IMG/VR virus record: IMGVR_UViG_3300029448_000397
Location: 1 to 25,308 of that record
From: a virus
DNA: 25,308 nt
Reading direction: 5' to 3' (one strand)
How positions within the stretch are numbered: the stretch's first letter is position 1; each line of letters begins with the position of its first letter. The notes under the pieces are model-generated. The model saw nothing but the letters and a program-made list of their open reading frames with translations, was not told where the DNA came from and searched no databases. This document shows, one piece after another, positions 2,321 through 25,152 of the stretch. A program made the position numbers and the translations under genes.

Positions 2321-2369
2321 TATCAACTCTATCAACTCTATCAACTACCCTTGATATATGTGATATATG
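2321..2369 (+). repeat. Two 9-nt tandem repeats in the terL leader
   Basis: TATCAACTC is repeated at 2321-2329 and 2330-2338, with a third copy differing in its last base at 2339-2347. TGATATATG is then repeated at 2352-2360 and 2361-2369, the second copy ending in the terL start codon. The first TGATATATG contains a decoy ATG immediately followed by TGA. No Shine-Dalgarno sequence is present in this leader. Confidence 0.8.
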
Positions 2370-3887
2370 ACAGAATTTAAATACAAACCTGATGGGGAAG
2401 TTCTTAAGAACTTTATGAAAGATAGTAATTTCTTTCGTGGTATTCGTGGTCCTGTTGGTTCTGGTAAGTCTGTTGCCTGTTGTGTCGAAGTTTTTCGCAG
2501 AGCCTTAGAACAGAAACCAAATAAAGATGGAGTTCGGAAAAGCCGTTGGGCAGTAATAAGAAATACAAACCCACAGTTAAGAACTACTACTATTAAGACT
2601 TGGTTAGATTGGTTTCCAGAAGACCAGTGGGGAAGATTCCATTGGTCAGTTCCCTACACTCACCACATTAAAACTAGCAATCTTGATATTGAAGTTATCT
2701 TCTTAGCATTAGACCGACCAGAAGATGTAAAGAAATTGTTATCATTAGAGGTAACAGGGGTGTGGGTAAACGAAGCCAGAGAAATTCCAAAGAGCATTAT
2801 TGATGCTTGCACTATGAGATGTGGAAGATTTCCTTCTATGAGAGAAGGTGGTCCTACTTGGTCTGGAGTTATTTGCGATACCAACGCTCCAGAAGAAGAC
2901 CATTGGTGGCCGATAATGTCTGGAGAGGTTCCAATACCAGACCACATTCCTAGAGAGCAAGCTAAGATGTTAGTTAAACCTGATAACTGGAATTTTTTTG
3001 TTCAGCCTTCTGCAATGGTAGAAACTCTTGACGATAAGGGAGAAGTTAACGAGTACCAAGATAATGTTAAGGCAGAAAATAAATTAAATATGCTCGACAC
3101 CTATTACTCAAATCTTATTCGTGGAAAAACAAAATCATGGATAGATGTTTATGTAATGAATAAATTGGGTACAATCCAAGAAGGTAAACCTGTATACCCT
3201 CAGTTTGTAAGTGAAACTCATATAGCAGAAGAAGAAATACCTATTGCGGCAGGTGTTCAATTATATATTGGAATTGATTTTGGGCTTACTCCTGCGGCTG
3301 TCTTTGGTCAGAAGGTGCGTGGCAGGTGGTTAATACAAGCTGAGATAGTAGCGATTGACATGGGCATTGTTCGTTTCGCAGAACTACTAAGGCAAGAAAT
3401 AGCTACTCGTTTTCATAACCTTGATGTAAAAATTTATGGCGACCCTGCTGGTGACTTCAGGGCGCAAACAGATGAATCAACTCCATTTCAGATACTAAGA
3501 GGTGCAGGATTAAAAGCTATACCTGCTCCAAGTAATAGTGTTGACCTCAGATTGGAATCTGTTTCTTCTCAGCTAACTAAAATGGCAGATGGAAAACCTG
3601 CGTTTTTAATAGATAGACGTTGCCCTTCTTTGATTAAAGGATTTCAAGGTGGGTACTGTTATAGAAGGATGCAAGTATCAGGAGAACGCTTTGATGATAA
3701 GCCAGAAAAGAATATGTACTCCCATATTCATGACGCACTACAATATTTAATGCTAGGTGCAGGAGAAGGAAGGCAATTAATTTCTGGACAAAAGCCATTA
3801 AGTTCGTTTATAGCTAGAAAGGACTTCAATGTTTTTGACAAAAAGCCCAGTGTTAGAAAGAAATCTTCAATATGGGCTAACCTATAG
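2367..3887 (+). CDS. terL: Terminase large subunit (ATPase-nuclease)
   Basis: The DNA-packaging motor: the N-terminal ATPase pumps DNA through the portal and the C-terminal RNase H-like nuclease cuts it. In the 506 residues, Walker A is GPVGSGKS (28-35). Walker B is GVWVNEA with the catalytic-type glutamate at E136 and Asn at 135 where many ATPases have Asp. The nuclease acidic triad is visible as IGIDFG (D304), YGDPAGD (D359) and HDALQYLML (D456). Length and order fit a complete protein. The ATG at 2367 follows an in-frame TGA at 2361-2363, so no upstream extension is possible. There is no Shine-Dalgarno sequence; the leader is a set of 9-nt repeats. Portal-proximal genes follow 9 nt downstream. 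This is one of the firmest calls in the window. Confidence 0.96.
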   Translation: MTEFKYKPDGEVLKNFMKDSNFFRGIRGPVGSGKSVACCVEVFRRALEQKPNKDGVRKSRWAVIRNTNPQLRTTTIKTWLDWFPEDQWGRFHWSVPYTHHIKTSNLDIEVIFLALDRPEDVKKLLSLEVTGVWVNEAREIPKSIIDACTMRCGRFPSMREGGPTWSGVICDTNAPEEDHWWPIMSGEVPIPDHIPREQAKMLVKPDNWNFFVQPSAMVETLDDKGEVNEYQDNVKAENKLNMLDTYYSNLIRGKTKSWIDVYVMNKLGTIQEGKPVYPQFVSETHIAEEEIPIAAGVQLYIGIDFGLTPAAVFGQKVRGRWLIQAEIVAIDMGIVRFAELLRQEIATRFHNLDVKIYGDPAGDFRAQTDESTPFQILRGAGLKAIPAPSNSVDLRLESVSSQLTKMADGKPAFLIDRRCPSLIKGFQGGYCYRRMQVSGERFDDKPEKNMYSHIHDALQYLMLGAGEGRQLISGQKPLSSFIARKDFNVFDKKPSVRKKSSIWANL

Positions 3888-3896
3888 GAGAGTATT

Positions 3897-4121
3897 ATGT
3901 GTTTCGGAAGAAGTAGAGCGCCAGAGCCAGAGAAAGACCCTGTTGTTGAGCAAGAGTTGGAATCAAAAGAAGTAATAGAAGAAAAGAAAAAAGAAGAAAA
4001 TAAACAAAAAGCTCTTGAAGCACAGGTTGCAGTTAAAAGAGGTGGCACTGGAAGACGCTCTTTGTTAACAGGTGGCGGTGGAATTGGCTACTTTAATAAA
4101 TACAAAGGGATGATAGGCTAA
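3897..4121 (+). CDS. Small protein between terL and portal, function unknown
   Basis: A 74-residue protein with an AGGAGAG ribosome site 7 nt before the ATG. It starts MCFGRSRAPEPEKDP, passes through a charged, probably coiled-coil segment rich in E and K (about residues 20-50), and ends GGTGRRSLLTGGGGIGYFN. A short protein with an N-terminal MCxG and a C-terminal RRSLL-Gly-rich tail beside the portal gene is a recurring arrangement in podoviruses, as I recall. Its role is not established here; a head-assembly accessory is likely from position. The last base of its TAA is the A of the portal ATG. Confidence 0.8.
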   Translation: MCFGRSRAPEPEKDPVVEQELESKEVIEEKKKEENKQKALEAQVAVKRGGTGRRSLLTGGGGIGYFNKYKGMIG

Positions 4122-5713
4122 TGTATATAGCAGTAAAAGGTGCAGATGATTCCGCTATTGTATCTTCTGTCATAAAAAATTTTGAATCTGCGAAAACTAA
4201 GCGAGAGCTTATGGTTGAACTTTATGAAGAGTGCTTTGAGTATACCCTTCCGTATAGAGAATCGTTTCACCAGAAATCAGCAGGTCAAAGAAGAGATGAT
4301 AAGATATTTGATGAGACTGCTGTAGTTGGTGTACAGGAATTTGCATCAAGATTACAGTCTGGTTTAGTTCCTAACTTTGCAAGATGGGCTGATTTTGTTG
4401 CAGGAAGTGAAGTTCCTGCTGAAGAAAGAGATGAGATTAACAATGACCTTGATGCTATTACAGAGTATGTATTTGAGATTCTTCAAAACTCAAACTTCAG
4501 TCAAGAGATACATGAGTGCTTTATTGACCTTTCTGTTGGTACTGCCGTTCTCCATGTTGAAGAAGGTGATGCAATTCACCCTATTCGTTTTAGTGCTGTT
4601 CCCATTCCCCATGTTGTTTTGGATACTGGCCCTGATGATAGGGTTGACCATGTGTACAGAGAAAGGTCTGTAAAGTATTCAGATATTGAGATAGCTTATC
4701 CTAAAGCAAAAATATCTCCTGAGTTACAACAGGCAATAGAAAGAAATCCTGACACACGCACTAAAATTATTGAATTAGTATGCAGAGATTACTCCGCAAA
4801 AAACGAAGACAAGTATTTATATTATGTGTGTGAAGAAAATACTAAATCATTAATTAAGAATGAAACGCTTAAAGGAACAGGAGCTAACCCTTTTATAGCT
4901 TTTCGTTGGGGTAAAGCCGCAGGTGAAATATATGGTCGTGGCCCTGTGTGTAACTCGCTTGCCGCAATTAAGACTGTTAACTTAATTAAGCAACATATTT
5001 TAGAAAATGCGGCTATGGCAATCTCTGGAATATATCAAATGGATGATGATGGTATCATTAACCCTGATACAATTTCATTAGTCCCTGGCTCTGTAATTCC
5101 TAAATCCCCACAATCTATGGGGTTACAGCCAATTAAAGCGGCAGGAAATATAGACTTTAGTAATTTTATTCTCAATGATGAAAGACTTAATATTAAACAA
5201 GCATTGTATAATGATATGCTTGGCGACCCAAATAAAACTCCTGCTTCTGCAACAGAAGTAGTAGAAAGAATGGCTGACCTTTCTAAAAGAATGGGTGCGG
5301 CTTTTGGCAGGTTACAATCTGAAATGGTGCAACCTGTTCTACAAAGAGTAGTTTACATATTAAAGAAGCAAGGAAGAATAGATATGCCAACTGTTAACGG
5401 AAGAGCAGTTAAGATTACGTCTGTTTCTCCTCTTGCACAAGCTCAGAACAATCAGGACATTCAAAGTGTTGCTCGGTTCTTAGAATTGGTAGGAGGTAAC
5501 TTTGGCCCTGAAATGGTAAACTTACTTGTTAAATCAGAAGATGTTGCTGTGTATCTTGCTAAGAAGTTTAGTGTTCCTGATAATCTTGTTCGTGACCAGA
5601 AGGAGCGTGAGGAGATGATTCAGATGATGCAACAAATGCAGATGCAACAACAACAGCAACAACAACAGATGCAAATGCAACAACAACAAGGACAGGCTAT
5701 TGCCGCAGAATAA
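4121..5713 (+). CDS. Portal (head-to-tail connector) protein
   Basis: Forms the dodecameric ring at one capsid vertex through which DNA enters and leaves, and to which the tail adaptor binds. The 530-residue product matches the T7 gp8-type connector family. It has a helical N terminus, then RRDDKIFDETAVVGVQEF and ASRLQSGLVPNFARWADF (about 57-92), and the later NPFIAFRWGKAAGEIYGRGP and TPASATEVVERMADL segments typical of the stem and clip. The last about 30 residues are almost entirely Gln and Met, an unusual low-complexity tail likely to be disordered. The start shares an A with the previous stop. The 3' end overlaps the next gene, whose ribosome site lies in the poly-Gln codons. Family assignment is firm; the tail's purpose is unknown. 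Confidence 0.95.
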   Translation: MYIAVKGADDSAIVSSVIKNFESAKTKRELMVELYEECFEYTLPYRESFHQKSAGQRRDDKIFDETAVVGVQEFASRLQSGLVPNFARWADFVAGSEVPAEERDEINNDLDAITEYVFEILQNSNFSQEIHECFIDLSVGTAVLHVEEGDAIHPIRFSAVPIPHVVLDTGPDDRVDHVYRERSVKYSDIEIAYPKAKISPELQQAIERNPDTRTKIIELVCRDYSAKNEDKYLYYVCEENTKSLIKNETLKGTGANPFIAFRWGKAAGEIYGRGPVCNSLAAIKTVNLIKQHILENAAMAISGIYQMDDDGIINPDTISLVPGSVIPKSPQSMGLQPIKAAGNIDFSNFILNDERLNIKQALYNDMLGDPNKTPASATEVVERMADLSKRMGAAFGRLQSEMVQPVLQRVVYILKKQGRIDMPTVNGRAVKITSVSPLAQAQNNQDIQSVARFLELVGGNFGPEMVNLLVKSEDVAVYLAKKFSVPDNLVRDQKEREEMIQMMQQMQMQQQQQQQQMQMQQQQGQAIAAE

Positions 5714-5981
5714 ATTAACTGACCACCCTAGACCTATGGGACTTGATGGATACCATAGGAATAAAGATTTAGAAAAACAAATTAATGCAAATGTTCTTTC
5801 TTTATTTAACACTCTAACAGGAGCAGAGGTTCTAAAGTATCTGCGAAGTATTACGATAGAAGCAGTACATGGTGCTAATGTTACTGATGCAGTATTACGT
5901 CATGCAGAAGGACAGCGTTATATTGTTGGATTAATTGAAAGAAGAATGGTACAAGCAAGTAGGGATAAACAAAATGGCTGA
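5700..5981 (+). CDS. Bbp19-like small phage protein, TTG start
   Basis: A 93-residue protein whose core FNTLTGAEVLKYLRSITIE and AEGQRYIVGLIERRM (about residues 37-84) resembles the small Bbp19-like domain found beside portal genes in podoviruses. Role unknown, probably in head assembly. I accept the TTG at 5700 because AAGGA (5688-5692) lies exactly 7 nt upstream; the later in-frame ATG at 5736 has no ribosome site. The start lies inside the portal gene and the stop lies 8 nt inside the scaffold gene, so it is locked between the two by overlaps. Confidence 0.75.
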   Translation: MPQNKLTDHPRPMGLDGYHRNKDLEKQINANVLSLFNTLTGAEVLKYLRSITIEAVHGANVTDAVLRHAEGQRYIVGLIERRMVQASRDKQNG

Positions 5982-6693
5982 AGAAAATGAACAAGCAACA
6001 GAAGCAACCGAAGAAAATGTTTCACGTGAAACAATCCAAGAAACAAGACCAGAATGGCTCCCAGAAAAGTTCAAAACAGGCGAAGACCTCGCCAAAAGTT
6101 ACCAAGAACTCCAAAGCCAATTTGGTAAAAAAGACACCGAACTTAGGGAAAAGATTACTTCTGAACTTGAGGGAAAGCGTTTGGAGAATCGCCCTGATAC
6201 CGCAGGTGATTATCTTTTACCTGAAACGATTGATGAAACGCTAGCACCAGATAACGAGTTACTACAATGGTGGGCTGAACATTCTCATAATAATGGGTTT
6301 AGCCAAGAACAATTTTCAGATGGAATACAAAAATACTTAGATGCTTTTGGTAAAATTGTACCTAATATGGAGCAAGAAAAAGCATCACTTGGCGATAATG
6401 CTGACGCTAGAATAGAAGCAGTAGGTCTTTTTGCTAATAAGTTTTTCCCAGAAGATTTAAGAGAATCTATTGAAGCAATTACAGAAACCCATCACGGCAT
6501 TAAGATACTTGAACATATTATGAGTGAACAAGTAGAAGGTGCAGGTCCATCTTATGACGCTAATGCTGTAGGTCAAATAGATGAAAATGCTCTGAAATCT
6601 ATGATGCAAGACCCTAGATACCATAATCCTACAAGACAAGACCCTGCTTTTATTAAGCAAGTAGAAGATGGATTTAAGAAACTCTACGGATAA
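5974..6693 (+). CDS. Capsid scaffolding (assembly) protein
   Basis: Internal scaffold that directs capsid-protein assembly and leaves before DNA fills the head. The 239-residue product starts MAEENEQATEA. Its acidic N terminus is followed by PEWLPEKFKTGEDLAKSYQEL (about 27-47), the hallmark of this family in marine and T7-like phages. The C terminus, DPRYHNPTRQDPAFIKQVEDGFKKLYG, is the typical capsid-binding end. ATG 5974 is preferred over an upstream in-frame ATG at 5935, because the latter lies deep in the previous gene and the family starts with the acidic stretch; AGGGA precedes 5974. Codons 15-20 (NVSRET) contain a perfect parS-type palindrome. The next gene starts 4 nt after the stop. 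Confidence 0.9.
   Translation: MAEENEQATEATEENVSRETIQETRPEWLPEKFKTGEDLAKSYQELQSQFGKKDTELREKITSELEGKRLENRPDTAGDYLLPETIDETLAPDNELLQWWAEHSHNNGFSQEQFSDGIQKYLDAFGKIVPNMEQEKASLGDNADARIEAVGLFANKFFPEDLRESIEAITETHHGIKILEHIMSEQVEGAGPSYDANAVGQIDENALKSMMQDPRYHNPTRQDPAFIKQVEDGFKKLYG
6018..6033. other. Perfect parS (ParB-binding centromere) palindrome in the scaffold gene
   Basis: TGTTTCACGTGAAACA is a perfect 16-bp palindrome identical to the bacterial chromosomal parS site. It reads N-V-S-R-E-T in the scaffold frame and M-F-H-V-K-Q in the +1 frame. At this base composition a chance occurrence in the window is about 1 in 100,000. I saw no second full-length copy; only partial half-site resemblances occur near 4264 and 20647. 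The sequence identity is certain; ParB binding here is inference. Confidence 0.85.
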
Positions 6694-6697
6694 AATT

Positions 6698-7207
6698 ATG
6701 CAAATAGGAAAGCTCTCTCTTATTAAAGGGAGGCTTTCTCATGTAATGGCTGTTGCAGAGAACATGAGGATTGAAGATGAATTTGAATGTTCGCTCTTTG
6801 ATATAAGTCCAATGCAAGCATTACTTATGCCTTTTGCCTTTGATAGCTCTATAACTTATACACTTGTTGCAGGTAACAAACCTGTTGCTTTAATGGGTAC
6901 AGTAGAAACAGAAAAGGCAGGAACAGCTAGGGTTTGGTTTTTGGCAACGGAAGAACTGCATAAACATAACGTATCTTTTCTTAAAGGGTGCAAAGATGTT
7001 ATTGAATTATTACAAAATAAGTACCATACGTTAGAAAATTTTGTTCCTATTGAAAACCAATCGACTATTAAATGGCTTAAATGGTGTGGCTTTTTATTTG
7101 ATGAAAGTTACTATTCTCATAATAATTACAAGTTTTTAAAATTTATTCGTTGCAATGTGAATAAAAGTATGTCTTATAATGAAATGTCACAGCCTATTTA
7201 CCATTGA
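6698..7207 (+). CDS. T7 gp13-like (GNAT-fold-like) virion/assembly protein
   Basis: A 169-residue protein that resembles T7 gp13, a small protein of the internal virion/assembly group with an acetyltransferase-like fold. The matching part is residues about 75-135: ARVWFLATEELHKHNVSF, then a helix with LLQNKYHTLENFVPIENQ and the closing IKWLKWCGFLFDE. This parallels the T7 pattern of W/F-LATDE, KYDTLWNYV, N-IRFLKTIGAVF. No obvious acetyl-CoA-binding Gly signature is visible, so enzymatic activity is doubtful. I chose ATG 6698, 4 nt after the scaffold stop with CGGA upstream, over an in-frame ATG at 6668 inside the scaffold gene. The T7 equivalent lies after the tail genes; here the gene lies between scaffold and capsid. 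Confidence 0.7.
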   Translation: MQIGKLSLIKGRLSHVMAVAENMRIEDEFECSLFDISPMQALLMPFAFDSSITYTLVAGNKPVALMGTVETEKAGTARVWFLATEELHKHNVSFLKGCKDVIELLQNKYHTLENFVPIENQSTIKWLKWCGFLFDESYYSHNNYKFLKFIRCNVNKSMSYNEMSQPIYH

Positions 7208-7270: not shown

Positions 7271-7299
7271 TTTAACTGTAAATAAGGAGATATACTATG
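7271..7299 (+). promoter_or_regulatory. Capsid-gene translation leader resembling the T7 gene 10 leader
   Basis: Before the capsid ATG (7297) the sequence reads TTTAACTGTAA (7271-7281), then AAGGAGATATAC (7284-7295), then TATGGCTA across the start. From memory, the T7 gene 10 leader reads TTTAACTTTAAG, AAGGAGATATAC, ATATGGCTAGC. The U-rich enhancer (epsilon) and Shine-Dalgarno block are thus almost superimposable, with one base fewer before ATG. This suggests very strong translation of the capsid gene. The 90-nt gap before it also holds a direct repeat, AGACAACT, at 7247-7254 and 7259-7266, of unknown meaning. Confidence 0.65.
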
Positions 7300-8109
7300 G
7301 CTAATAGTATTGATACAGCCTTTATCAAACAGTTTGAAGCAGATGTTCACATGGCTTACCAAAGAATGGGGTCTAAGTTACGGAATACTGTTAGAACTGT
7401 CGGTAATGTTGCAGGAAGCGTTGTTCGCTTTCAAAAAATTGCTAAAGGAAGTGCGTCTACCAAGTCAAGAAATGGTAACGTAACACCAATGGAATTAGTA
7501 CACACCACAGCAGAAGCTACAATGGCAGACTACTATGCCGCAGAGTACATTGATAAGTTAGACGAGTTAAAGACTAACATCAATGAACGTCAAGCTGTAG
7601 CACAATCTGCGGCGGCGGCTCTTGGTCGTAAGACTGACGAGCTACTTATTACCGCTATGGATGCAGGTGCTAGTTCAACTCAAATACATGATACAAGTTC
7701 TGCTCTTGAAAAAGCTGACGTACTATCATTGTTTGAAACTGTTGGTGTTGCTGATATGCCTGAAGATGGTAATAGGTTTTGTGCAATGAATCCAAAAGGG
7801 TTTGCTGATTTGTTTGCTATAAACGAATTTGCAAGTGCTGATTATGTTGGTGATGCAAACCTACCATACGCAGGTGGTATGACTATGAAAGAATTTTTAA
7901 GTTTTAAATTCTTCTCAACATCTGCTGTAACCGCAGGAAAGAACATGGCTTATCATAGTTCTGCTGTTGGTTTAGGCATTGGTGCTGACGTATCAACTGA
8001 ACTTAACTATGTACCTGAGAAGGTATCTCACCTAGCAACATCAATGATGTCAATGGGTGCTGTCGTTATTGATGACGCTGGCATCTATGAAGTCCTTGAT
8101 AATAATTAA
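7297..8109 (+). CDS. Major capsid protein
   Basis: Predicted shell protein, 270 residues. It starts MANSIDTAFIKQFEADVHMAYQ and continues with the VTPMELVHTTAEATMADYYAAEYIDKLDELKT region, whose alternating charged helix resembles the spine region of HK97-fold capsid proteins of the 'phage capsid protein' group found in podoviruses. The C terminus ends VVIDDAGIYEVLDNN. It is shorter than T7 gp10A (about 345 residues). The gene has the best ribosome site in the window and follows scaffold and gp13-like genes, exactly where a capsid gene belongs; a small capsid-associated gene follows after 14 nt. The fold cannot be proven by eye, but the position and the sequence style make this a strong call. 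Confidence 0.9.
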   Translation: MANSIDTAFIKQFEADVHMAYQRMGSKLRNTVRTVGNVAGSVVRFQKIAKGSASTKSRNGNVTPMELVHTTAEATMADYYAAEYIDKLDELKTNINERQAVAQSAAAALGRKTDELLITAMDAGASSTQIHDTSSALEKADVLSLFETVGVADMPEDGNRFCAMNPKGFADLFAINEFASADYVGDANLPYAGGMTMKEFLSFKFFSTSAVTAGKNMAYHSSAVGLGIGADVSTELNYVPEKVSHLATSMMSMGAVVIDDAGIYEVLDNN

Positions 8110-22179: not shown

Positions 22180-22596
22180 ATGAGTACACTCTTATTAAAC
22201 ACACTAACAGGCAAAACCTCCGCAGGGTCTATCGTGGTGACAGGCGAAGGTGGTTCTACAACTACGAATATGCAACAGGGTTTAAATAAAGTTTGGATTG
22301 ATATACCAGAAGGACAAGCAAGTATAAACGATAGTTTTAATGTTGCATCTTTAACGGATACTGGCACAGGAGATGGTGCAGTAAACTATACTTCATCTTT
22401 TTCAAACACTACTTATTGTGTCTTAACTGGTTCTGAAGATAAAGCATCTAGCTCACCTGTAAGGACACATGACGTTACAGAAGGGCAAAAAACAACTGCT
22501 AAATATGACTTTGAAACTTTTTTTGTGAACTCTTCATCAGACAGAACAAACGATGATTGTAGGTCATATTCAGGAATACACGGAGACTTAGCATAA
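22180..22596 (+). CDS. HGDLA-family fibre-module protein, copy 1
   Basis: 138 residues starting MSTLLLNTLTGKTSAGSIVV. The family pattern is G-x-S-T-T-N-x-x-Q-x-L-x-K near residues 26-37, DSFNVASLTDTGTGDGAVNYTSSFSNTTY in the middle, and a C terminus ending IHGDLA. It is related to the products at 22596, 23889 and 24760. AGGA lies 8 nt before the ATG. The last codons (GGAGAC) supply the ribosome site for the next gene, whose ATG shares a base with this stop. No known family recognised; from context a small beta-rich virion protein of the adhesin module. Confidence 0.78.
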   Translation: MSTLLLNTLTGKTSAGSIVVTGEGGSTTTNMQQGLNKVWIDIPEGQASINDSFNVASLTDTGTGDGAVNYTSSFSNTTYCVLTGSEDKASSSPVRTHDVTEGQKTTAKYDFETFFVNSSSDRTNDDCRSYSGIHGDLA

Positions 22597-22598
22597 TG
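22579..22598 (+). repeat. HGDLA junction element, copy 1
   Basis: CACGGAGACTTAGCATAATG encodes HGDLA-stop and the overlapping ATG. GGAG lies 10 nt before the next start. Confidence 0.85.
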
Positions 22599-23009
22599 GT
22601 AGCACATGGAACAATAGCATTTGACACGCTTACAACGTCTGACCAAGTAAACACTGGCACTGAGAAGTCACTAGATACGAGTTATCTTTTTAATGGTGTG
22701 GCTAAACAGTGGAGCAAATACAACCAACAAACTCCTGCTACGGCTGATAGTTTTAACACAACTTCAATTACAGATGCGGCAACAGGAAAATTTACTACAG
22801 TAATTACAAATGTTATGAGCAGTACCGACTACACTACTATTGGAACTTGTATTTCTGTGGGTAATTATCATGGTGCTACAAGTGGTCCGCAGACCTCAGA
22901 TGTAACTATTACTACATCTACTTATGGTTTAAGAACTGCATCAACTTCAAATGAAACGCTAAGAGATATGGACCATAACTCAGTCTTAGTACACGGAGAC
23001 TTAGCATGA
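22596..23009 (+). CDS. HGDLA-family fibre-module protein, copy 2 (divergent)
   Basis: 137 residues starting MVAHGTIAFDTLTTSDQV. It keeps the family core (GVAKQWSKYNQQTPATADSFNTTSITDAATGKFTTVITNVMSSTDY, about residues 33-80) and the VHGDLA C terminus, but has lost the MST-type start and the STTN motif, making it the most divergent of the four. It starts on a TAATG overlap and ends with ATGA, so it is coupled to both neighbours. Function as for copy 1. Confidence 0.75.
   Translation: MVAHGTIAFDTLTTSDQVNTGTEKSLDTSYLFNGVAKQWSKYNQQTPATADSFNTTSITDAATGKFTTVITNVMSSTDYTTIGTCISVGNYHGATSGPQTSDVTITTSTYGLRTASTSNETLRDMDHNSVLVHGDLA
22992..23008 (+). repeat. HGDLA junction element, copy 2
   Basis: CACGGAGACTTAGCATG: same coding element, but the stop is TGA in an ATGA overlap, so GGAG lies 7 nt before the next start instead of 10. 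Confidence 0.85.
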
Positions 23010-23494
23010 CAATAGAAACACCAGAGTTTCAAGGCACACACTTATGGGAGCGTCTATGTTGGGCAAAGGAAAAGCTAGAGCCTTACAGGAGCGAGTACTG
23101 TGTAGTGTGGGAGGACCCTAACGATATGGAAAACCCTGCTAAAGTTACACACCCCGACCCAAACTGGATGGCTTGTGCATTACAGGGTGGGATACTACCA
23201 CCAGTACAATCCTACTGGGAACTAAAGAAGGATGAGAATAAGCCTGACTTTGTAAAGCATACTAGAGGTCCAGAGCTTCTACACAATATGAAACCTATTG
23301 ACGCTATGACAGAAGAAGAAGCAATAGAGTATTTAATAATGAAGGATATACCAGAACATGTGTGGAGAGATTGGGATAAGTCCAATAAGCCACGCTTAGT
23401 AATTTGCCAAAAGTCACAACTCCCTGCATCTAGGGAATGGAGAAACGCTTGGCAGATAAGTGATGAACTCACTGTTGAAACTGAAGCCGCATAA
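23006..23494 (+). CDS. Unknown protein in the fibre module
   Basis: 162 residues starting MTIETPEFQGTHLWERLCW. It is mixed alpha/beta, Trp-rich and acidic, quite unlike its beta-rich neighbours. Recognisable stretches are MTEEEAIEYLIMKDIPEHVWRDWDKSNKPRLVICQKSQLP (about 98-137) and REWRNAWQISDEL near the end. I recall similar proteins in marine phage fibre regions beside the short gene that follows here. A non-virion assembly factor (a fibre chaperone-type role) fits this composition and place, but it is inference. The ATG overlaps the previous stop (ATGA). Confidence 0.75.
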   Translation: MTIETPEFQGTHLWERLCWAKEKLEPYRSEYCVVWEDPNDMENPAKVTHPDPNWMACALQGGILPPVQSYWELKKDENKPDFVKHTRGPELLHNMKPIDAMTEEEAIEYLIMKDIPEHVWRDWDKSNKPRLVICQKSQLPASREWRNAWQISDELTVETEAA

Positions 23495-23505
23495 GGAGAT
23501 TAATA

Positions 23506-23880
23506 ATGGCAACTAAATCTTATATAACTGACATGGATGGAGCGACAGTGGATGCGTCTACTGTAACTAAGCCATCTGATAGACACTTCAGAGGAGCATG
23601 GAAACTTAGTGGTTCTACTATCTCTGAGGATATAACTAAAGCAAAAGAAATCTTTAAGGACAAGATTAGAGAAGCTCGTACACCTCTACTTGAAGCTGAA
23701 GATGTGGTGTATATGAAGGCACTGGAAGCTGATGATGCTTCTGCTAAGACTGCAAGTGTAGCTAAGAAAAAGAAACTTAGAGATGCACCTGCCGCCTCTG
23801 CGATTGGTAGTGCTGACACTATAGCTAAACTAAAAGCCGCTTGGGATGCAAGCACATTGGGTACTAGCCCTTACGCATAG
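23506..23880 (+). CDS. Tail/fibre assembly chaperone-like protein
   Basis: 124 residues with AAGGAGA 8 nt before the ATG. The layout SDRHFRGAWKLSGSTISEDITKAKEIFKDKIREARTPLLEAEDVVYMKALE (about 25-75), followed by a lysine-rich KKKKLRD stretch and IAKLKAAWD, matches a widespread small phage protein group placed next to fibre genes. Its pattern is R-x-F-R-x-A-W, then K-A-x-E-x-x-x-D-x-I-R-x-x-R, then L-R-D. These are usually annotated as hypothetical or as tail-assembly proteins. It is helical and probably not part of the mature virion. It probably works with the gene just upstream. Confidence 0.72.
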   Translation: MATKSYITDMDGATVDASTVTKPSDRHFRGAWKLSGSTISEDITKAKEIFKDKIREARTPLLEAEDVVYMKALEADDASAKTASVAKKKKLRDAPAASAIGSADTIAKLKAAWDASTLGTSPYA

Positions 23881-23888
23881 GATACTAA

Positions 23889-24299
23889 ATGGCACTGACC
23901 AATTTAACAAAAGGTTTAACTGTAGATAGTGAAGGTGGTTCTGCTACTACTAATCTTGTACAGAGTTTAGCTAAGTCTTGGATAAATTATAAACAAGCGG
24001 CTACGTTTGTGGTTAATGATAGCTTCAATATTAGTAGCGTTAATGATGATGGTACTGGTGATGGAGATACTAATTATACCAACAACTTTGGTAATGCTAA
24101 TTATGCGGCGGTTGGAGGGTCAGCCAGAGGGTTAGAAGACGCAACCAATGCATATTGGACTTTTCCTACTCGTGGCTCAGATAGTGTATACTCTACATCA
24201 TCTACAAGTTGGAGAAGTGGATATAATCCAAGTTCAGACGCTCTTAATGTAGCAGATTGTTTCTTAAACCTTATTTCTATTCACGGAGATTTAGCGTAA
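23889..24299 (+). CDS. HGDLA-family fibre-module protein, copy 3
   Basis: 136 residues starting MALTNLTKGLTVDSEGGSATTNLVQSLAKSW. The family features are all present: SATTNLVQSLAKSW (about 18-31), NDSFNISSVNDDGTGDGDTNYTNNFGNANYAAVGG (about 43-77) and a final IHGDLA. It is closest in the middle region to copy 1 (D-x-G-T-G-D-G-x-x-N-Y-T). AGGA lies before the ATG. The stop overlaps the ATG of the next gene. The two helical assembly-type genes separate it from copy 2. Confidence 0.78.
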   Translation: MALTNLTKGLTVDSEGGSATTNLVQSLAKSWINYKQAATFVVNDSFNISSVNDDGTGDGDTNYTNNFGNANYAAVGGSARGLEDATNAYWTFPTRGSDSVYSTSSTSWRSGYNPSSDALNVADCFLNLISIHGDLA

Positions 24300-24301
24300 T
24301 G
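24282..24301 (+). repeat. HGDLA junction element, copy 3
   Basis: CACGGAGATTTAGCGTAATG: differs from copy 1 at two synonymous third positions (GAT for GAC, GCG for GCA), keeping GGAG 10 nt before the next start. Confidence 0.85.
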
Positions 24302-24763
24302 CCATATATAGGAAAGTCACCAAAGAACTCAGTCCGTAGTCGCTTCACATATCAGGCTACAGCAGGACAGACATCATTCAGTGGTAGTGATGCTAACTCT
24401 TTAACTCTCAGCTATCCAGATAGTTTGTACATGGATATTTATTTAAACGGAGTGTTACTTAAAAGTGGTACAGATTATACAGCGACCACAGGTACAACTG
24501 TTGTCTTAGCCAGTGGAGCAGTAGCTAATGATGTTGTTGAGATGGTGGTGTATGATGTGTTTGGTGTAGCAGATAGTTATACTAAAACTGAAGCTGATAC
24601 TCGTTACCCTTTTCTTGGAAACAACTCTATCATTAGAACTAATGGTGCTACTATTACTTCTGACATAAGTATAAGCAGTAGTACAAACGGATTGTCAGCA
24701 GGGCCAGTAACAATTAATTCATCTAGCACTGTAACTGTTTCAGGACATTGGAGTATAGTATGA
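24299..24763 (+). CDS. Fibre-module beta protein (MPYIGK paralogue)
   Basis: 154 residues starting MPYIGKSPKN. The ATG at 24299 overlaps the previous stop and is served by GGAG in the HGDLA codons; an in-frame ATG at 24257 lies inside the previous gene and is rejected. The N-terminal domain (RFTYQATAGQTSFSGSD, then MDIYLNGVLLKSGTDYTATTGTTVVLASG) resembles the N-terminal domain of the 21128 product. The C-terminal SIIRTNGATITSDISIS, then AGPVTINSSSTVTVSGHWSIV, corresponds to that protein's end domain and to end caps of other phage fibres. A TKTEADTRYPF element links the two. Likely adhesin or fibre-tip part. Confidence 0.8.
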   Translation: MPYIGKSPKNSVRSRFTYQATAGQTSFSGSDANSLTLSYPDSLYMDIYLNGVLLKSGTDYTATTGTTVVLASGAVANDVVEMVVYDVFGVADSYTKTEADTRYPFLGNNSIIRTNGATITSDISISSSTNGLSAGPVTINSSSTVTVSGHWSIV

Positions 24764-25152
24764 CAAGTAAGCTAGTCTTAGATAATATAGCAGGAAGAAC
24801 TACAGCAGGTAGTATAACTATTGTTGGAGAAGGCAATAGTACAGCTACAAATCTACAGCAAGGATTGGCTAAATTTTTTTCAAGAACTGCTTCAGATGGA
24901 GCAAGTACAAACGATAGTTTTAATCAATCAGGATTAACTGATACAGCATCAGGAAGACAAGACTTTGCTTTTACTAATAATATGGCTAGTACAAATTATG
25001 CGGCACACGTTCAACCTCACGATGGTTTTGCTAATGAACCTGCTGTAAACACAATTGCAACAACTGGCTTTAGAGGAGATTGTAATGATGATACGGCAGG
25101 AGACAGACAAGATGTTAGTCAAGGTAATACAGTACACGGAGATTTAGCATAA
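24760..25152 (+). CDS. HGDLA-family fibre-module protein, copy 4
   Basis: 130 residues starting MTSKLVLDNIAGRTTAGSIT. ATG 24760 overlaps the previous stop (ATGA) and is preferred over an in-frame ATG at 24748. The start is strikingly like copy 1 (LLNTLTGKTSAGSIVVTGEGGST versus LDNIAGRTTAGSITIVGEGNST). STATNLQQGLAKFF, NDSFNQSGLTDTASG and FTNNMASTNYAAH follow, and it ends VHGDLA. The N-terminal MTSxLxxDxI tag is also shared with the next, partial gene. Confidence 0.78.
   Translation: MTSKLVLDNIAGRTTAGSITIVGEGNSTATNLQQGLAKFFSRTASDGASTNDSFNQSGLTDTASGRQDFAFTNNMASTNYAAHVQPHDGFANEPAVNTIATTGFRGDCNDDTAGDRQDVSQGNTVHGDLA

Follow-up and report, generated by a model that had tools for sequence, protein, structure and literature searches.

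Why should the genome of a T7-like marine phage carry a perfect copy of a bacterial centromere inside a capsid assembly gene? The window analyzed here (the whole stretch of 25,308 bp) is an IMG/VR virus record and possibly a fragment. As the preliminary description had reported, it contains the exact chromosomal parS consensus TGTTTCACGTGAAACA, a 16-bp palindrome, at positions 6018 to 6033 with 0 mismatches, and this is the only parS within 3 mismatches in the window (with 3 mismatches allowed, shuffled versions of the window contained 0.13 sites on average). The 16-mer encodes NVSRET, codons 15 to 20 of the scaffold gene, and sits in the short N-terminal tail of the protein, upstream of a conserved RPEWLPEKF. 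The surrounding features are as follows.

2367..3887, plus strand, terminase large subunit, 65% identical to that of pelagiphage Hodr
4121..5713, plus strand, portal (head-tail adaptor), phrog_332
5700..5981, plus strand, small gene between portal and scaffold, ending 8 bp inside the scaffold start
5974..6693, plus strand, T7-like scaffold/capsid assembly protein of 239 aa (PHROG phrog_1052, head assembly; Pfam Phage_T7_Capsid PF05396, 3.7e-12), 33% identical to that of Hodr
6018..6033, palindrome with no strand assigned, parS TGTTTCACGTGAAACA, consensus match that is synonymously invariant in all VSRET scaffolds
6668..7207, plus strand, gene between scaffold and capsid, internal-virion-protein family, phrog_308
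7297..8109, plus strand, major capsid protein, 52% identical to that of Hodr

Among cultured phages, the closest relative of the window phage is EXVC031P Hodr, a Pelagibacter phage obtained on HTCC1062, and from relatives only we infer that the window phage probably infects SAR11. Farther along the window (22180 to 25152), consecutive small ORFs (22180, 22596, 23889, and 24748) all end in HGDLA and have sequence in common close to the start, a pattern suggestive of duplication of a tail-tip cassette.

Among bacterioplankton of marine surface waters, SAR11 is reported to be the most abundant (PMC10504331). Its own parS occupies the first codons of rsmG, behind mnmG, and encodes VSRET (NVSRET in most); the coding parS that the preliminary description had ascribed to alphaproteobacterial rsmG genes is correct for SAR11. 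A site within 1 mismatch was present in 39 of 60 SAR11-family genomes, exactly one in 38 of these 39, and the 21 genomes without a site may be incomplete. ParB lies 1.4 to 1.7 kb from parS in the two genomes checked. The likely host, SAR11 as judged through Hodr, has the same parS as the window together with ParB. Host variants of the site also recur in phages: AGTTTC.. (outermost base) in L471, CGTTTC.. (outermost base) in L470 and L472, and TGTTCC../..GGAACA (position 5/12) in L367 and L368. Two phage variants at the center of the site (TGTTTCACATGAAACA and TGTTTCATGTGAAACA) were not seen in the sample of 60 SAR11-family genomes. Across the SAR11 loci L477 to L487, parS is usually single and inside the start of rsmG, and a host with only one parS may be exceptionally vulnerable to interference by phages.

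Codon invariance of the site in scaffold genes

The protein searches for scaffold homologs covered the matches listed, and the census of the family is incomplete. In 22 of 22 distinct VSRET scaffold genes the peptide is spelled GTT TCA CGT GAA ACA, and these five codons never vary, whereas synonymous variation is present in 29 of the 30 other columns with an invariant residue. Between VSRET scaffold lineages, 26 to 55% of shared residues are spelled by different codons. Under the codon usage of the window, NVSRET would be spelled in exactly this way with a probability of 0.0047, and the joint chance of the five VSRET codons is 0.0067. The invariance of these codons while other columns vary, with this joint chance, therefore indicates that selection acts on the DNA. 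Four of the 22 genes (L111, L141, L148, and L159) were found only by exact-16-mer searches, which are biased towards the site; the conclusion of DNA-level constraint does not rest on them.

Other searches approached the site differently. Protein searches starting at RPEW, which are blind to the N-terminal tail, recovered the VSRET lineages L404 and L411, both with the exact 16-mer. When the IMG/VR viral_contigs were screened for VSRET in any codons ahead of PEWLPEK (the only constraints being a GAA codon and a gap of at most 33 bp), 20 contigs were returned. All 20 spell the peptide GTT TCA CGT GAA ACA and have the same 14-bp core; 3 of them depart from the 16-mer at its outermost base alone, which is the wobble position of the codon preceding V. 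In addition, 29 viral contigs have P-E/D-W no more than 30 bp after the exact 16-mer, most of them scaffold genes from several divergent lineages with differing residues around VSRET. The preliminary description had looked to NVSRET with free synonymous variation as evidence against a parS, and no homolog keeps VSRET with a synonymous change.

These data bear directly on whether the NVSRET peptide is itself selected in the scaffold protein, with the parS match as a by-product. In its favor, VSRET is the usual translation of the site and the tail belongs to the protein. However, five codons are fixed across 22 genes when 29 of 30 other columns vary, and this contrast and the low joint chance make this account extremely improbable; moreover, most homologs lack the peptide, and the site also occurs in unrelated proteins and in non-coding DNA. 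Synonymous invariance and the non-coding sites together rule out peptide selection as the sole cause.

Distribution of the site among related phages

The site was found at several other positions in related phages. In G024, an exact parS lies in the C-terminal linker of a 138-aa protein (L518:9883-10299, minus strand) that ends in DDIPF and adjoins an ERF annealase; the ending of this protein resembles the acidic tip of single-stranded-DNA-binding proteins, and no match to it was found in Pfam or PHROG. In G050, an exact parS lies in a large virion protein, and in L040 one lies in non-coding DNA behind the portal gene. The same non-coding place holds a 1-mismatch parS in L367/L368 and L370, and the non-coding DNA behind the portal in L369 holds a 3-mismatch site; in one related lineage the non-coding site is just before the small gene that separates portal and scaffold (the counterpart of 5700..5981). 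A 1-mismatch parS occurs near the end of the gene that separates scaffold and capsid (the counterpart of 6668..7207) in L387 and L426. Hodr itself has a 2-mismatch version, TGTTTCAAATGAAACA, encoding ENVSNET, and the Hodr-like L366 has NVSHET with 1 mismatch. The number of sites per genome in the family is usually one, with one in each record searched. In 1.07 Mb of sequence from relatives lacking VSRET, permuted palindromes were matched 0.043 times on average with no more than 1 mismatch. On the reverse strand of L040, between the portal and the next gene, a promoter-like sequence (TTGACT-N17-TATACT) lies ~70 bp upstream of the non-coding parS and is conserved in L367 and L370.

The site is nevertheless absent from much of the wider family. 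No site was detected in 86 of 102 dereplicated scaffolds (among the matches listed), which are mostly of higher GC and of which many are fragments; carriers are AT-rich, with a median GC of 0.365 versus 0.43 when kinship is ignored. Absence of both peptide and site with no site elsewhere, which had been proposed as grounds for doubt, divides the family: several relatives carry the site elsewhere, but most distant homologs have neither. On a tree of the 102 scaffolds, the scaffold parS requires at least 5 changes, 3 of them on strongly supported branches, and any site requires at least 10 changes, 6 of them on strongly supported branches; gains are indistinguishable from losses on this tree, and the any-site count is if anything low because L040 was labeled siteless. 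L320, the sister of L470 and L053, is without a site.

Among cultured phages, no site within 2 mismatches was found in the pelagiphages HTVC010P, HTVC034P, HTVC019P, HTVC011P, HTVC025P, HTVC119P, HTVC200P, Bylgja, Jormungand, Eistla, Skadi-4, and Baldr or in Roseobacter phage CRP-125. With these twelve pelagiphage isolates siteless and Hodr at 2 mismatches, the site is therefore dispensable for many pelagiphages, and the twelve siteless isolates indicate a trait restricted to some lineages. HTVC134P (OR420744.1), a cultured pelagiphage of another group, has a 2-mismatch parS-like sequence, TGTCTCAAGTGAAACA, at 30113-30128.

Probable loading of host ParB and the alternatives

A ParB_N domain was found in 0 of 14 phage records, with SAR11 controls positive in the same search, and a ParB of the phages' own was rejected on this ground. 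This was the check for phage parB genes that the preliminary description had suggested, and its proposal of a putative host parS on a phage without Par genes of its own gains support from the synonymous constraint and from the absence of ParB_N. We consider it probable, at roughly 0.83, that the 16-mer serves as a loading site for host ParB and that selection at the DNA level maintains it in the phage genome.

ParB is known to nucleate on parS, bind CTP, and slide as a clamp onto adjoining DNA (PMC8367383). We infer that host ParB would likewise bind the phage parS and close into a CTP-loaded clamp, that the clamp would slide from parS onto neighboring phage DNA, and that the phage genome would become cargo of host ParA/ParB and perhaps of SMC, to the benefit of the phage. 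The likeliest benefit would be that the phage genome is positioned on the nucleoid and passed on to daughter cells, either in a slow infection or in an unintegrated carrier state, and the phage would gain this without encoding Par proteins. Unstable plasmids are stabilized when they have one chromosomal parS and the cognate Par proteins (PMC7022226). We rank positioning and inheritance as our first choice of benefit, followed by DNA organization or transcription effects and then by ParB titration, and we give a benefit from positioning or segregation alone slightly less than even odds.

The two lower-ranked benefits draw on the same data. ParB/SMC loading may organize, condense, or protect phage DNA, or spreading may modulate scaffold-capsid transcription, as several lineages carry the site between the portal and capsid genes, the L040 site is ~70 bp downstream of the promoter-like sequence described above, and nearby promoters can be affected by ParB complexes (PMC7022226); however, the position is not constant, and in G024 (beside ERF) and G050 (large virion protein) the site is far from the capsid genes, which leaves this role doubtful. 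A takeover of host ParB, in which many phage copies sequester the protein, disrupt host segregation and division, and thereby benefit the phage, is also unlikely. Most site-bearing SAR11 genomes have one parS, which a replicating phage could outnumber with a single site per genome, yet titration alone would favor several sites per phage genome, and the family genomes searched have one.

Explanations that do not involve ParB fare considerably worse. An RNA or DNA hairpin (TGTTTC and GAAACA arms around ACGT) is very improbable as the selected feature: the palindrome can form a 6-bp stem of -3.9 kcal/mol, and some variants (Hodr, L366, and L370) fall in the 4-nt loop, but folding of the 80-nt region is no more stable than that of shuffled sequences (z = 0.20), the 22 scaffold sequences contain no compensatory stem change, and the outermost-base variants of L470 to L472 disrupt the terminal pair and coincide with variants of the host parS. 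The hairpin was rejected because its folding is not unusual relative to shuffles. Even less credible is integration into host rsmG with the 16-mer as attachment core (attP), which would account for the identical 16 bp there. The phage records searched yielded neither a tyrosine integrase nor a serine recombinase, phage-host identity extends no more than a base or two beyond the palindrome, and the site moves within phage genomes while its sequence is unchanged; an attP/attB core was discarded as no phage integrase was found in these records.

Comparable systems and occurrence in other viruses

Bacteriophage phi29 DNA carries parS-like sites. This virulent podophage enters spores with the help of host Spo0J (Meijer et al. 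2005, cited in PMC9437464); its genome is handled by a ParB homolog of the host and not by one that the phage encodes, which is the likeness to the reading proposed here. Phage use of host ParB is therefore of a known kind. In phi29, however, the purpose is entrapment in the spore, tied to Spo0A control, whereas the present phages are T7-like and marine, with presumably nonsporulating alphaproteobacterial hosts and a single site that is usually in coding sequence. Set beside phi29, their records, some of which are fragments, have parS and no ParB_N, integrase, or serine recombinase. A phi29-like contig with a tail knob of the gp9 family (L009) has four parS, three exact and one with 1 mismatch, in two close pairs (5525, 5551, 12130, and 12154), which fits the use of Spo0J by phi29.

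Phage-plasmid parABS systems (P1, N15, and mycobacteriophage) also place a centromere on phage DNA for partition, with their own ParA/ParB and their own parS types. In contrast, the present phages lack ParB_N (0/14), and their site is of the host chromosomal type. The coding parS of rsmG (gidB) shares the 16-mer, the frame, and VSRET (NVSRET in most) near the N terminus, but the phage site is in an unrelated protein and the flanks are not shared. Alphaproteobacterial phages have also repeatedly acquired CtrA-binding sites, associated with lytic deferment (PMC9437464); these too are DNA sites for a host cell cycle protein, although a transcription factor and promoters are involved there and a chromosome-partition protein here. 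In the open-access literature we found no report of a host parS in pelagiphages or in other lytic phages from the sea, and as far as that literature shows, a single host centromere kept in T7-like marine phages of presumably nonsporulating hosts is undescribed.

In the IMG/VR viral_contigs, at least 120 stretches (loci L001 to L120) contain the exact parS 16-mer, compared with 5 for one palindrome of the same composition. Chance is ruled out by this control palindrome together with the permuted palindromes in the relatives. ParB_N was present in only 3 to 4 of 42 larger exact-parS carriers, and some contigs could be misassigned host DNA. Clusters of three to five exact parS occur in L016, L043, L052, and L062 (the first three being short), and no ParB_N was found among those of the four that were searched. 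In a phage primase/helicase family, two members (L091:7754 and L108:3397) have an exact parS as VSRET at the same place; this pair is 74% identical, and 49% of the identical residues are spelled by different codons.

We see an even chance that a host centromere without ParB is a widespread convergent phage strategy, a DNA-only attachment to the host partition machinery that has arisen repeatedly within tolerant gene stretches (scaffold tails, linkers, and primase) or non-coding DNA. Overall, the sequence evidence suggests that this family of marine viruses may borrow the chromosome-sorting machinery of the host without encoding it. If so, phages related to SAR11-infecting isolates would be built for handling by the host chromosome-partition machinery, and the phi29 precedent would be extended beyond sporulation. 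The finding offers a clear test of whether phages that seem to be lytic rely on a host centromere to position their unintegrated genomes or pass them on, and parS without ParB offers a sequence marker that can be counted across viromes.
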